DNA of 35,767 bases, from the NCBI GenBank assembly GCA_903842025.1, contig CAIMKX010000001.1, positions 1-35,767 of the forward strand, written 5' to 3'. Below the pieces are notes generated by a model. That model did no database searches. It saw only the letters and a program-made list of their open reading frames with translations, and was not told where the DNA came from. This DNA is from an uncultured bacterium. GTDB taxonomy: Bacteria; Patescibacteriota; Minisyncoccia; Phycocordibacterales; PALSA-1337. Positions 4,341 through 33,888 of this stretch are shown in pieces (position 1 is the stretch's first letter; every line of letters starts with the position of its first letter). The translations under genes and the position numbers were made by a program.

Positions 4341-4420
4341 TTTATAGATATTTGGCTCTTTGGGAAATAGATCATTGGATATTTACTCGAGGCGCATTAA
4401 ATCTCAACGTTGGTGTTCTT

Positions 4421-4702
4421 ATGACAGAAAAACGATTGTCGGAAATATGTACAAGTCTTGCCTTTGCCTCTTCAAGAGGACGAAGGAGTCTGTTTTGCGA
4501 ATCTCTTCTGCCAGAGTTAGGTATTCCCTATCAGGCTGTGAGGGAGACAAAGTTAGATATTCCAGATTCGGATCTCAAGCAACTTAGTGCAGAATCCATA
4601 CTTGCTCGTAAGACAATTCAGCTAGTACTTCAGAAATTGCGAGCTGAAGTCTGTAGACTTGATCCTATCACCAGCCAAAGCTATCTGAAACTCTTGGAAT
4701 AA
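4421..4702 (+). CDS. Hypothetical protein (ORF open from 4268; start uncertain)
   Basis: ORF with promoter inside its upstream extension and terminator after; ATG at 4421 used here. Confidence 0.45.
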   Translation: MTEKRLSEICTSLAFASSRGRRSLFCESLLPELGIPYQAVRETKLDIPDSDLKQLSAESILARKTIQLVLQKLRAEVCRLDPITSQSYLKLLE

Positions 4703-4762: not shown

Positions 4763-6670
<1,908 letters not shown>

Positions 6671-7125: not shown

Positions 7126-7146
7126 TTACCATGTCAGACATGGTAA
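7126..7146. promoter_or_regulatory. 21-bp odd palindrome TTACCATGTCAGACATGGTAA
   Basis: Perfect inverted repeat around the central A in the intergenic region upstream of pilB. Confidence 0.6.
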
Positions 7147-7152
7147 GACCCT

Positions 7153-7240
7153 GGATTTTATCAAATTTTGAACAAGATTTTATCAGTTCTTGAACAAAAT
7201 TTTATCGTTTCTTGAACAAGATTTTATCAGGATTTTATCT
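7153..7240 (+). repeat. ~22-bp direct-repeat array (ATTTTATCnnTTCTTGAACAAG), copy 1, upstream of pilB
   Basis: gattttatcaaattttgaacaa / gattttatcagttcttgaacaa / aattttatcgtttcttgaacaa / gattttatcaggattttatc. Confidence 0.95.
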
Positions 7241-7245
7241 CTCTC

Positions 7246-7254
7246 TGATATCCT
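7246..7254 (+). promoter_or_regulatory. Extended -10 (TGATATCCT), 6 nt before the pilB ATG
   Basis: TGA-TATCCT-TGGTTC-ATG. Confidence 0.5.
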
Positions 7255-28996: not shown

Positions 28997-29028
28997 AAAA
29001 ACAAGACCCGCCGAAGCGGGTTTTGTTT
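28997..29028. terminator. Bidirectional terminator after gyrA and after the tRNA-like RNA
   Basis: AAAACAAGACCCGCCGAAGCGGGTTTTGTTT. Confidence 0.85.
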
Positions 29029-29126
29029 AGGATTTTACGGGTTTTTTCTCAACCTCATCCTGTCAGCTGATTAAAGTATATACCCAAAAAGAATGTTGTC
29101 AACCTTCTCTAGTTCTTCGAATAGTA

Positions 29127-29200
29127 GTGGACCCGACGGGAGTCGAACCCGTAAAACCTCAGCTGACAGGATGAGGGCGGAGACCGTTCCGCGGGCCCAC
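29127..29200 (-). ncRNA. tRNA-like RNA, non-canonical anticodon arm (possible degenerate or structured regulatory tRNA)
   Basis: Minus strand: GTGGGCCCG/CGGGTCCAC 9-bp stem, ACGGG-TTCGACT-CCCGT T-arm, CGGA-ACGGTC-TCCG D-like arm, CCTCA-(10 nt)-TGAGG arm; TATAAT at 29227-29232. Confidence 0.55.
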
Positions 29201-29226
29201 GAACGAAGTTAATCGTTCTGAGCCTG

Positions 29227-29232
29227 ATTATA
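29227..29232 (-). promoter_or_regulatory. -10 TATAAT for the tRNA-like RNA
   Basis: Minus strand ATTTTATC-TCCGCTGAG-TATAAT. Confidence 0.6.
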
Positions 29233-29240
29233 CTCAGCGG

Positions 29241-29327
29241 AGATAAAATCCTGATAAAATCTTGTTCAAGAAACGATAAAATCTCTTTCAAGAACTGATA
29301 AAATCTGTTTCAAGAAATGATAAAATT
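29241..29327 (-). repeat. ~22-bp direct-repeat array, copy 2 (inverted relative to copy 1)
   Basis: Minus strand gaattttatcatttcttgaaacagattttatcagttcttgaaagagattttatcgtttcttgaacaagattttatcaggattttatctc. Confidence 0.95.
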
Positions 29328-29917: not shown

Positions 29918-31228
29918 ATGAGCAAATTCCAGATCATCACCATATTTATTTTCATCCTGGCGATCATCGCCGGAGTGACGTCTTTTGCTCTTTACAAAGG
30001 CAACAGCGGAACTTCATCTTTGCCTGCAATAACTATTTGGGGAACTTTTCCGGCCAATACCTTCAATGAATATGTAGCAAACATCAATAGTGGCCTGACC
30101 CAGTCAATGAAAATTACTTATGTTCAGAAAAGAGCGGACAGTTTCAATAGTGATTTCGTCAATGCCTTGGCTTTGGGTCAAGGCCCGGATGCAATCCTTA
30201 TTCCGTCCGACATGATGTTGGCCGAACAAAACAAGCTGACCCAAGTACCATTTTCAGCTTTTTCTCAGAGGGAATTCATGGACTCTTACATCGATGAGGC
30301 CCAGATCTATCTTGACAGTACCGGCGCTTGGGCCATTCCGTTTACCGTTGATCCTTTGGTCATGTATTGGAACAAGGATATCTTCAATGCCGCCGGCATC
30401 GCTCTCTATCCGCAATATTGGGATGAGTTGACCGGCACGGGAGTGAAACCTGGTTTGGTTCAAAAGCTTACAGTGAAGGATTCTAACGGCAATGTCAGGA
30501 AGACGGCTGTGGCCATGGGAGATTTTACGAATATCACCAATGCCAGAGAATTACTCGGTTCGCTATTCCTCCAAGCAGGGAATCCTGTAACCTCGAGGGA
30601 TAACAGTGGTCTTATCTATTCGACCCTGAACACCTCCAATTCCACCAACTCGATCTCGCCGGCCGTCCAATATTTCAGCCAGTTCGCCAATCCGACCAGC
30701 GCCAATTATTCCTGGAATAGGGCTATGTCCAATGACAAGACGGTTTTCCTGGCCGGGCAGTCGGCGATCTATTTTGGTTTCGCCTCGGAGATTCTGGAGC
30801 TGCGGGCCAAAAATCCCAATTTGAATTATGACGTGGCGCCATTGCCGCAGTTGCGGTCCGGCCAAAAAGCCGTCTACGGCAAGATGTTCGGTTTCTCTTT
30901 GGTGAGGTCTTCGGCCAATGCCAATGCCACATACCAGATTATTTCCACTTTGATCTTACCAGCCAACCTGGCCGCTCTTTCCAAGACGATGTATTTGCCT
31001 TCAGTCCGCAATGATGTTATCGCCCAAGGCTCGACGAATGCTTACATCACGATCTTCAACAAAGCCGCTCTGATCTCCAAGACGTGGCTGGATATCGATC
31101 CTCAGATATCCAGGCAGATCTTCAGCAACCTGACCCAGTCTCTGATCAGCGGCCAGAAAAATATCGATCAAGCAATTCGAGATGCCGCTGATCAATATAG
31201 TGCGGTGCTTCAGCAGGCGGGGAATTAA
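29918..31228 (+). CDS. Extracellular solute-binding protein (family 1-like), N-terminally anchored
   Basis: ITIWGTFP...DAILIPSDMM...IPFTVDPLVMYWNKDIFNAAGI...AIYFGFASE. Confidence 0.8.
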   Translation: MSKFQIITIFIFILAIIAGVTSFALYKGNSGTSSLPAITIWGTFPANTFNEYVANINSGLTQSMKITYVQKRADSFNSDFVNALALGQGPDAILIPSDMMLAEQNKLTQVPFSAFSQREFMDSYIDEAQIYLDSTGAWAIPFTVDPLVMYWNKDIFNAAGIALYPQYWDELTGTGVKPGLVQKLTVKDSNGNVRKTAVAMGDFTNITNARELLGSLFLQAGNPVTSRDNSGLIYSTLNTSNSTNSISPAVQYFSQFANPTSANYSWNRAMSNDKTVFLAGQSAIYFGFASEILELRAKNPNLNYDVAPLPQLRSGQKAVYGKMFGFSLVRSSANANATYQIISTLILPANLAALSKTMYLPSVRNDVIAQGSTNAYITIFNKAALISKTWLDIDPQISRQIFSNLTQSLISGQKNIDQAIRDAADQYSAVLQQAGN

Positions 31229-31232
31229 AATA

Positions 31233-31751
31233 ATGTCCAAATTCCAAATTCCAAATTCCAAATTCTTCGTCGCAGTAGTGACACTTGTCTTTTTGTTGAC
31301 TATTTCTTTCAATCCTCTTCTGGCCCAGACCAATGTTATGCCGATCAACAGTGAGAACATCAATAGTTCTGCTTTCAGACTGACTGTTTGCGACGGTCCG
31401 GCCATTCCTTCAAGTGCCGCCAGTTCGATCCCTACCGATGCCGCGGAGTTCAAAGCCAAATTCGGCCACGATCTGCCATATGTGCCCTGCGACTTCAAAG
31501 GCCTGATGATGCAGATCCAACATCTCATCAATATCGCCATCATTGGCGGAGTTTTGCTAGCCGTCGGTTTGTTCACCTACGCCGGATTTCTTTACGTTCG
31601 CGGCGGCAAACATGTCGATGAGGCCAAGAAGATATTCCCTAAAGTCTTCTGGGGTTTTATAATAATGCTGTCAGCTTGGTTCATCGTTTACCAGCTGTTG
31701 AATTGGCTAACCGGTAGCAATGTGTTCGGCGTCTTATTGGGTCAACCATAA
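31233..31751 (+). CDS. VirB2/TrbC-like small membrane protein 1
   Basis: Signal peptide plus TM pair LINIAIIGGVLLAVGLFTYAGFLYV / VFWGFIIMLSAWFIVYQLLNWL. Confidence 0.65.
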   Translation: MSKFQIPNSKFFVAVVTLVFLLTISFNPLLAQTNVMPINSENINSSAFRLTVCDGPAIPSSAASSIPTDAAEFKAKFGHDLPYVPCDFKGLMMQIQHLINIAIIGGVLLAVGLFTYAGFLYVRGGKHVDEAKKIFPKVFWGFIIMLSAWFIVYQLLNWLTGSNVFGVLLGQP

Positions 31752-31753
31752 AT

Positions 31754-32221
31754 ATGAAACAAATCAATTTAAAAATATTTTTTACTTTCTATCTATTAGC
31801 AATAATTGTTTTGATTTCTCCTGTTGCTATGGCCCAAACTATTGGTGGTGACGTGCCTAACAGCAGTATTGGTGGTAATACAACAGCGACAAATGGTATT
31901 TTTACTCTTTCAAATCCTTTAAAGGTTGATTCGATCGGTGGTTTGGTTCAGAGTTTGGTGGAAATTTTCAGTTACATTGCCATCATATTTGCTGTTGTGA
32001 TGATTATCTATACTGGTTTTCAGTATGTTACCAATGCCGCTCAAGGTAACGCTAAGAAAATTGAGGAATTGAATAAGCAGATGCTTATGATTATTATCGG
32101 AGTTGCTATAATCATTGCCGCCAGAGTTATGGTTCAGGTAGTTATCAATACTTTAGAGGTTACGGGCGTAGTCAGCCCCGAAGTCATTCAAAGTGCTAAC
32201 AAGGCCACCAAAATCCAATAA
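31754..32221 (+). CDS. VirB2/TrbC-like small membrane protein 2
   Basis: Signal peptide; LVEIFSYIAIIFAVVMIIYTGFQYVTNAAQGNAKKIEELNKQMLMIIIGVAIIIAARVMV. Confidence 0.7.
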   Translation: MKQINLKIFFTFYLLAIIVLISPVAMAQTIGGDVPNSSIGGNTTATNGIFTLSNPLKVDSIGGLVQSLVEIFSYIAIIFAVVMIIYTGFQYVTNAAQGNAKKIEELNKQMLMIIIGVAIIIAARVMVQVVINTLEVTGVVSPEVIQSANKATKIQ

Positions 32222-32230
32222 TTAAAATTT

Positions 32231-32608
32231 ATGTCCAAATTCCAAATTCTATATTCCAAATTCTTAGTCGTTTCATTAATGTTCGTTGTTATTCCACTGG
32301 GTCTCATTCATGCCCAAACTTCTAAAACTCTGAAGGATATGATCGCTTTGGTTGCCGGTTACTTCAATAGCATTTTGGCCTTAATGATGGGCATCGCCGT
32401 CATAATGTTCGTCTGGTACATCATCAATTATTACATCAAAGCCGACGCCGACAAGAAAGAGGCCGGACAATACCTCATGTGGAGCCTGATCGGATTCTTC
32501 GTGATCCTGTCGCTTTGGGGTTTGGTCAATATTCTTATCAATACGTTTGGTCTTGGCACCGGCAGTCCGGGCAGTTGGACCAGCCTAAAAAACCTGTTTC
32601 CGCAGTAA
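32231..32608 (+). CDS. VirB2/TrbC-like small membrane protein 3
   Basis: Signal peptide; IMFVWYIINYYIKADADKKEAGQYLMWSLIGFFVILSLWGLVNIL. Confidence 0.65.
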   Translation: MSKFQILYSKFLVVSLMFVVIPLGLIHAQTSKTLKDMIALVAGYFNSILALMMGIAVIMFVWYIINYYIKADADKKEAGQYLMWSLIGFFVILSLWGLVNILINTFGLGTGSPGSWTSLKNLFPQ

Positions 32609-32617
32609 TTTAATCAC

Positions 32618-33106
32618 ATGAAAAAAACATTTATATCTTCTATTCTTCTAATAGTGGTGTTGGCAATTCCACTTACGTCTTCAGCTCTGACGGCGGTTTA
32701 TCAAGCAACACCGGCGGCGCAAGTAACAACTCAAACTCAGTCCTTGAATAAAATAACCGATGCCAATGGTCTCATAAATAGAATAGCTAGTTTTGGAAAC
32801 GTGGCCGTTTATCTTCTGGTTGCCTTGGCGGTCGTCTTTATTGTCTATAACGTCGTAATGCGTCTGACCAAGCCCGGTGCGGAAGATCAGGCCAAGGCCA
32901 GTATGGATATTTTGTGGGGAATCATCGGTTTGGCCATAATAGTCTCGCTTTGGGGCCTGGTTAACATTTTGGTCAACACTTTTTCGACTGACAATAGTAT
33001 GCAAAACACTTTGCCAAACGCCAATTTCATCAATACTACCAACAGTGGCTCGAGCAATAGTTCCAATTCAAACAACAATGATTACGGCGGCGAGCTTAAC
33101 AATTAG
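32618..33106 (+). CDS. VirB2/TrbC-like small membrane protein 4
   Basis: VVFIVYNVVMRLTKPGAEDQAKASMDILWGIIGLAIIVSLWGLVNILVNTF. Confidence 0.65.
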   Translation: MKKTFISSILLIVVLAIPLTSSALTAVYQATPAAQVTTQTQSLNKITDANGLINRIASFGNVAVYLLVALAVVFIVYNVVMRLTKPGAEDQAKASMDILWGIIGLAIIVSLWGLVNILVNTFSTDNSMQNTLPNANFINTTNSGSSNSSNSNNNDYGGELNN

Positions 33107-33151
33107 CGTAATCCACAGTTTCATTTGTCTATTTTGGGGAATAATGGGGTA

Positions 33152-33157
33152 TAATTA
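33152..33157 (+). promoter_or_regulatory. Possible internal -10 (GGGGTATAAT) before protein 5
   Basis: ataatggggtataattagc in the 84-nt gap before 33191. Confidence 0.4.
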
Positions 33158-33190
33158 GCAAAGTATTAAGTTTATTAATTTATCATAACT

Positions 33191-33586
33191 ATGAAAAAAA
33201 TCATCGCTTTAGTCGCCGCCCTTATGCCTTCCATGGCATCGGCCCAGGCTCTCTCCACTATTACCAATATCAATGATGTCTCCAAAAGAGCTTTGAGTAT
33301 TGGAGACACGTTCACCTATATTCTCGTCGCTCTGGCCGTCATCTTCATCGTTTGGAATGTCGTCATGTATATCATCAAGCCTGCGGCTTCCGATGACAAG
33401 GCGGCTGCCAGCAAGAACATTCTCTGGGGCATTGTCGGTCTTTTCATTATCGTCTCCATTTGGGGCTTGGTGAACATATTGACCAATAGCTTCAAGACCA
33501 CGACCGGTACGCAACCTATACCTAATTCTGGTGGCAATCCGAACACCGGTGGTATTCCAGCCAATCAGATTCCTGTTGTTCAGTAA
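33191..33586 (+). CDS. VirB2/TrbC-like small membrane protein 5
   Basis: IFIVWNVVMYIIKPAASDDKAAASKNILWGIVGLFIIVSIWGLVNIL. Confidence 0.65.
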   Translation: MKKIIALVAALMPSMASAQALSTITNINDVSKRALSIGDTFTYILVALAVIFIVWNVVMYIIKPAASDDKAAASKNILWGIVGLFIIVSIWGLVNILTNSFKTTTGTQPIPNSGGNPNTGGIPANQIPVVQ

Positions 33587-33588
33587 TC

Positions 33589-33888
33589 TTGATGTTTCAA
33601 TTTCTTGATCTTATCCCGAGAGCGAAAGCGGCAGTTGATCTGGCCGCTTTTGGCGTTATCGTCAATCCGATAATAACGAATATCGTTTACCCTGTAATTG
33701 CCCTCATGTTCGGCGTCGCCGTCTTGTTCTTCGTTTACGGTGTGATTCAAATGATCATTACGAACGATGAAAGCGGCCGCGAGAAGGGGAAGATGACCAT
33801 CTTGTATGGCACCTTGGGTATGTTTATAATGGTCTCGGCCTGGGGGATAATATATCTGGTATCAAATACGGTTAAGGGAGGATTTTAG
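33589..33888 (+). CDS. VirB2/TrbC-like small membrane protein 6
   Basis: VLFFVYGVIQMIITNDESGREKGKMTILYGTLGMFIMVSAWGIIYLVSNTV. Confidence 0.65.
   Translation: MMFQFLDLIPRAKAAVDLAAFGVIVNPIITNIVYPVIALMFGVAVLFFVYGVIQMIITNDESGREKGKMTILYGTLGMFIMVSAWGIIYLVSNTVKGGF

Follow-up and report, generated by a model that had tools for sequence, protein, structure and literature searches.

Arrays of short direct repeats standing immediately before -10 boxes define what is, on the predicted functions of the genes behind them, a competence and type IV pilus regulon with accessory genes in one genus of Patescibacteria, and they very probably act as activator-dependent promoters of that regulon, with a regulator of the OmpR/PhoB family as the activator. 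Two of the arrays lie in the window, i.e. the whole stretch of 35,767 nucleotides analyzed here, which belongs to a genome of 949,867 bases in 56 contigs.

Both arrays were recovered by reading and by TRF (7154-7229 and 29252-29326, period 22) at the places given in an earlier note on this DNA, and a shared 30-mer with at most 3 mismatches had 6 matches in the window compared with 0 in 100 shuffles. Array 1 (7157..7239, + strand) is made of eight in-register 11-bp half-sites, TTTATC or TTGAAC, with the last TTTATC at 7234-7239, and is followed by an extended -10 box, TATCCT, with TGA before it (7249..7254, +). Array 2 (29242..29324, - strand) also has eight in-register 11-bp half-sites, the last TTTATC at 29247-29242, and its -10 box is TATAAT (29227..29232, -). 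At both the last half-site starts 15 nt from the -10 box and the terminal GATTTTATCAGGATTTTATCTC is separated from it by 7 nt; the spacing of exactly 9 nt from the last TTTTATC to the -10, reported earlier, was confirmed on each strand (TATCCT 7249-7254, +; TATAAT 29232-29227, -). The common terminal sequence reported for the two window arrays is more general, as ATTTTATCAGGATTTTATCT ends all 11 arrays of the genome, bar one or two letters. The target operon of array 1 begins with a gene for a PilB/GspE-type ATPase (PF00437; 7261..8373, +) followed by a PilC/GspF-type gene (PF00482; 8388..9446, +). A palindrome, TACCATGTCAGACATGGTA, lies just 5′ of array 1 (7127..7145, +), similar ones lie 5′ of four other arrays (C9, C38 twice, and C44), and copies were located at 266 and 318 in L107, at 4346, 4398, 6995, and 7047 in L109, and at 8539 in L110; found near several arrays and at times paired about 52 bp apart, it is possibly a second regulator site or a terminator. 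Palindromic GTCATTCCCGCGAA repeats occur at 1000-1034, 6002-6099, and other places in the window and also within comEC (L109), sitting in frame in protein genes (hisS, typA, and comEC by eye) in a manner resembling Rickettsia palindromic elements.

The arrays had been described as repeats of a 22-bp unit carrying a CTTGnnCAAG dyad, but what actually repeats is a half-site of 11 bp, TTnAYC. The final two units of both window arrays are GATTTTATCAG GATTTTATCTC, both with TTTATC and spaced 11 bp, and because of this spacing and the plain 11-bp phase seen in relatives the period is 11 bp. TTTATC mostly alternates with TTGAAC in this species, hence the look of a 22-bp period and of CTTGnnCAAG. The dyad is particular to this species rather than conserved and the half-sites are direct repeats, which rules out a palindromic reading. 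Upstream of congeneric pilB genes the letters vary (TTTATC, TTCATC, TTCAGC, TTGAGC, and TTGATC), with the 11-bp phase and the -10 kept. Among 725 half-sites in 11-bp register, positions 1, 2, and 4 were T, T, and A at 0.99 each, a figure owed mainly to the TTnAnC-type scoring rule by which the half-sites were gathered, and position 6 was C in 0.73. Arrays in this genome had 6-9 detected half-sites each.

A genome-wide search for the array sequence returned 25 matches, forming 11 arrays, with 0 for the reversed pattern. A 31-mer with up to 3 mismatches had no match outside this species, because the half-sites have diverged, and a degenerate half-site pattern was therefore required. The genus search used a pattern of five half-sites without any -10 and covered 34 congeneric genomes and 26 outside the genus. 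Matches occurred in 27 of the 34, mostly many in each (57 in this genome, with a maximum of 63), while the 26 outside genomes had 0-1 each and the reversed control 0-2. Matches on C65 of G012 were a different palindromic repeat and were excluded. For 57 distinct arrays from seven species, TGnTAnnnT in or just after the array fell in a single one of the 11 phases in 41 of 44 cases, and farther downstream it was spread across phases. From the start of the last half-site to the -10 the distance is 15 nt in most species and 16 nt in G006, G028, and most of G011; as some of the promoters tabulated were retrieved with a pattern that contained the -10, the table describes this distance rather than testing it. 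Spacing statistics of a second batch of promoters were left out of the evidence because their search pattern included the -10. In the pilB upstream regions of 30 congeneric genomes, the best three-half-site score at the right distance from the -10 was 8-12 of 12, compared with a mean of 3.4 in control windows, 0.3% of which scored 10 or more. The earlier remark that no good -35 is visible held across 113 array promoters, where matches to TTGACA at 16-18 bp spacing were mostly 2/6, below background.

The genes behind the arrays in this genome are pilB-pilC, a prepilin gene followed by one for a D-Ala-D-Ala carboxypeptidase, comEC (PF03772), comM (Mg_chelatase/ChlI), and a gene for a 309-aa protein without Pfam match that by eye resembles the metallo-beta-lactamase part of ComEC-type proteins. 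Other protein targets are a 963-aa LCAT-like protein and an 86-aa coiled-coil-like protein, the RNA targets are two tRNA-like RNAs and one RNA adjoining a response regulator gene, and for one of the 11 arrays the target runs off the contig end. In relatives the same orthologs are found under arrays, together with dprA, the rpsF-ssb operon, a histidine kinase gene, Y1 transposases, and PemK/MazF-like and LPD3-like genes; dprA and ssb are under arrays in relatives and not in this genome. In their promoters, comEC, dprA, ssb, comM, and type IV pilus genes thus have one site in common, as in a competence regulon, and the PemK/MazF-like, LPD3-like, and LCAT-like targets, not being competence genes, were counted against this reading. 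The Y1 (IS200/REP-type) transposase genes stand under array promoters in G003 and G001 (L219, L228, and L377), each with a hairpin just before it, an arrangement that would tie REP-type mobility to competence. The proposal that array 2 might also serve the divergent methyltransferase/SBP/T4SS-pilin operon was dropped, as all arrays face one way and none of the proteins of that operon matches sequence downstream of any of the 113 array promoters. Downstream of a solute-binding protein gene, the region itself (31182-33888, +) has six small consecutive genes with matches to T4SS_pilin (PF18895), five of which pass the curated cut-off.

The regulator had been called unknown in the earlier note; its view that a single regulator serves the arrays stands, and the candidates can be narrowed to one response regulator of the OmpR family, encoded on contig C6 (15469-16164), which is the best candidate for the arrays. 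There are only two OmpR-type regulators in this genome, and this one is widespread in the genus, the other patchy. A search of 33 congeneric relatives found its orthologs (51-62% identity) in 28, including every relative at least 90% complete. It has a receiver domain (PF00072, E 2.7e-22) and a winged-helix domain (PF00486, E 9.9e-20), its best solved relative is 1kgs (DNA-binding response regulator D, E 2e-43), and reading of the sequence places a predicted phospho-acceptor Asp in IILDNALPKKNG together with VKPF. The arrays have direct repeats about 11 bp apart, as do sites of the OmpR/PhoB family, and the C6 regulator is their putative binder. Of 28 congeneric orthologs, this genome included, 27 have an array with a -10 at 61-210 bp on the 3′ side of the stop codon of the regulator gene, with only one recognisable half-site in G029 and weak arrays in a few others; none was found 3′ of the ortholog in G034, a relative outside the genus. 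Next to the regulator, 15 congeneric genomes have a histidine kinase gene (HATPase_c/HisKA), which in G012 is located elsewhere and in G003, G026, and G001 follows the array; no close homolog of this adjacent kinase was found in the present genome (best E 2e-5). At L106 (G000 C6, array 4388-4462) and at regulator loci L127-L155, a hairpin of the GTTATnnGTCGAnATAAC type starts the predicted transcript 3′ of the regulator gene, a transcript that in this genome is a short RNA and in some relatives forms the leader of the mRNA for a histidine kinase. In 27 hand-picked sequences the stem of this hairpin had 26 double-changed cells compared with 6.5 in shuffles, indicating a covarying palindrome that is probably an RNA hairpin.

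One relative, G009, had no match to the TTnAnC pattern. It had nine matches, eight of them exact, to GTnAnC followed by a -10, compared with 0-2, none exact, in seven other congeneric genomes including this one, and the switched arrays precede pilB, comEC, prepilin, coiled-coil protein, and PemK-like genes, rpsF-ssb, and the regulator-linked RNA. Position 1 of the half-site is G in 0.89 of 54 G009 half-sites versus 0-0.02 in 16 other genomes, whose half-sites were gathered with the T pattern, although pilB promoters fetched by protein give the same contrast. The recognition helix of the regulator reads TVEAHMARLR in G009 and TVEAHIRNLR or close variants in the others, with the R-N pair kept in 26 of 28 orthologs. 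The sister regulator of G013 (HIAHLR) is the only other ortholog altered at these two helix residues, and its half-sites, judged by eye only, look altered at position 3, not position 1. The N to R change in G009 falls at the position of PhoB R201, one of four base-contacting residues (PMC3264566). Since the change of half-site and helix is one evolutionary event, it is a strong lead rather than statistics, and G009 is a natural half-site swap by which the specificity of the regulator is directly testable in vitro.

These patterns are consistent with a mechanism in which tandem 11-bp half-sites (TTnAYC-N5) run to the -35, the last two covering the -35 region and the last one starting 15 nt (16 in some species) before an often extended -10. 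The OmpR/PhoB-family regulator (C6:15469-16164) would bind head-to-tail on one face of the DNA and would contact RNA polymerase, standing in for the absent -35 contact, and it would jointly switch on pilB-pilC, the prepilin, comEC, comM, the RNAs, and the accessory genes, and in relatives dprA and ssb. Binding of the arrays, the direction of activation, and a signal are what we infer, and activation is preferred over repression because of the missing -35 and the array geometry.

PhoB and the regulator described here have the recognition helix frame T-V-x-x-H-I-R-x-L-R in common, and the pho box, like these arrays, keeps a fixed distance to the -10. In pho boxes, direct repeats of 11 bp (CTGTCAT plus 4 bp) stand head to tail and overlap the -35 region (PMC3348028, PMC4832192, PMC3264566), and the present arrays are likewise 11-bp direct repeats at the -35, but with mostly 4-10 half-sites rather than one pair, a predicted regulon for DNA uptake rather than phosphate, and a kinase that is often missing. 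ArcA sites, whose architecture is diverse and which mostly repress, have two to five direct repeats mainly 11 bp apart, beyond the dimer pair (PMC3798270). Extra 11-bp direct repeats beyond a pair are therefore shared with ArcA, whereas the present arrays exceed ArcA sites in length, keep a rigid phase relative to the -10, and seem to activate. Joint control of competence genes by one regulator is familiar from ComE/ComX of Streptococcus, ComK, and Sxy/TfoX, each of which turns on genes such as comEC, dprA, ssb, comM, and pilus genes, and a similar control may operate here; to our knowledge none of these uses an OmpR-type regulator with long 11-bp arrays.

Alternative explanations could retain the same regulon and promoters but assign the sites to another binder, such as a one-component regulator or an alternative sigma partner, with the OmpR-family regulator merely neighboring one target. 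The C6 regulator is a predicted binder and the kinase is missing in this genome, which would leave room for such a protein, but 11-bp direct repeats placed like the pho box are a hallmark of the OmpR/PhoB family (PMC4832192, PMC3798270), the array adjoins the regulator gene in 27 of 28 species, and a helix change accompanies the half-site switch; another binder is unlikely on these grounds. We consider it about equally unlikely that the arrays are repressor operators, at which bound regulator would block RNA polymerase and its release would turn the genes on. The sites do overlap the core promoter, and the family member ArcA mostly represses from such sites (PMC3798270), but these promoters have no -35, which fits a promoter needing help, and the spacing of the last half-site to the -10 is constant, which is also true of pho boxes.

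It is barely credible that the arrays are passive or mobile repeats (REP- or CRISPR-like) that came to lie near genes by chance, even though the unit resembles a tandem repeat and other repeat families are common in the window, given the single orientation relative to the -10, the fixed phase, and the same gene set in diverged species despite different half-site letters. The earlier note had held that a lack of positional conservation in relatives would mark a passive repeat; because promoter spacing is conserved in relatives, that reading is refuted. The data agree instead with its main suggestion of a multi-site array at the -35 through which one regulator, here the putative OmpR/PhoB-family activator, would control loci far apart, the pilus operon and a tRNA-like RNA among them.

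The tRNA-like RNA behind array 2 has a predicted transcript that starts with a 5′ hairpin (GAACGA-TTAACT-TCGTTC; 29201..29218, -). The RNA proper (29127..29200, -) has a 7-bp acceptor stem (extended to 9), G3.U70, A73, a D-like arm, a T-arm, and an anticodon-like arm with a 10-nt loop. Downstream, a consensus-like promoter, TTGACA-16-TATACT (29075..29102, -), precedes a predicted small RNA (28998..29071, -) with the terminator CCCGCTTCGGCGGG-T, and the 18 nt of this small RNA at 29070-29053 are perfectly complementary to the anticodon-like arm. There were 11 examples of array-driven tRNA-like RNAs in six species (besides the window copy, L111, L226, L248, L250, L351, L352, L363, L364, L376, and L382), all with the T-arm at a constant distance from the -10. 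A73 was present in 11/11 and G3.U70 in 9/11, and acceptor pairs were 7/7 in nine and 6/7 in two. The four that were folded were all more stable than shuffles (z -3.5 to -5.3), and the anticodon-like loop, read by eye in four, is 8-11 nt compared with the 7-nt loop of tRNA. ARAGORN labeled the window copy “tRNA-???” and recognized only 3 of the 10 other loci as tRNAs, with three different anticodons, and no Rfam family, tRNA included, reached its gathering score. A tRNA was rejected on the enlarged loop, the ARAGORN calls, and the Rfam scores below gathering, and a tmRNA was rejected at 20.2 bits against a gathering score of 47, with a 74-nt match to a 374-position model.

A TTGAC-type promoter, in which a TAnnnT lies at 15-19 nt, comes after every tRNA-like RNA. 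When each RNA was compared with its own downstream sequence, the longest complement measured 7, 9, 7, 9, 13, 7, 12, 10, 8, 14, and 18 nt; the 110 cross pairings averaged 6.8 nt and did not go above 9 nt. Five loci (10-18 nt) therefore exceed all controls, two reach the control maximum, and the other four are not distinguished by this measure. In six loci, reading of the sequence shows a GTCGA-type hairpin and then TGGTGGA, the complement of a CCA-tailed 3′ end; species-specific extension of this complement matched at 11/11 positions in two loci and 10/11 in one, with the rest within cross-pair levels. From the complement lengths and the partial matches of the 3′-end extension, a predicted partner RNA complementary to the anticodon-like loop (class A) is well supported and one complementary to the CCA-tailed 3′ end (class B) is tentative. 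We give slightly better than even chances to a competence-induced tRNA-like RNA, with the alanine identity pair and an enlarged loop, that acts on or is held by a dedicated partner RNA; if this is true, we found no known parallel.

Among Patescibacteria, Saccharibacteria also have a com system, although they are another lineage, and their comEC and natural transformation have been studied genetically (PMC10633639); the main text of that article contains neither “response regulator” nor any word beginning with “regulat”. No description of a competence regulator in Patescibacteria was found in the open-access literature searched, nor was one of the predicted circuit found for this group. Arrays were longer in lineages lacking a kinase next to the regulator (p 0.0055 and 0.0016, uncorrected for the tree), but on the tree, with only 2 well-supported independent pairs, the association was not significant, and a tie between array length and kinase loss is suggestive. 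The longer kinase-less arrays raise the idea of kinase-free control driven by cooperativity. Patescibacteria are poor in genes and in known regulators, and genetic work on them is almost absent; for the control of their DNA uptake, a gene set, a promoter code, and a probable regulator can now be named in one genus.
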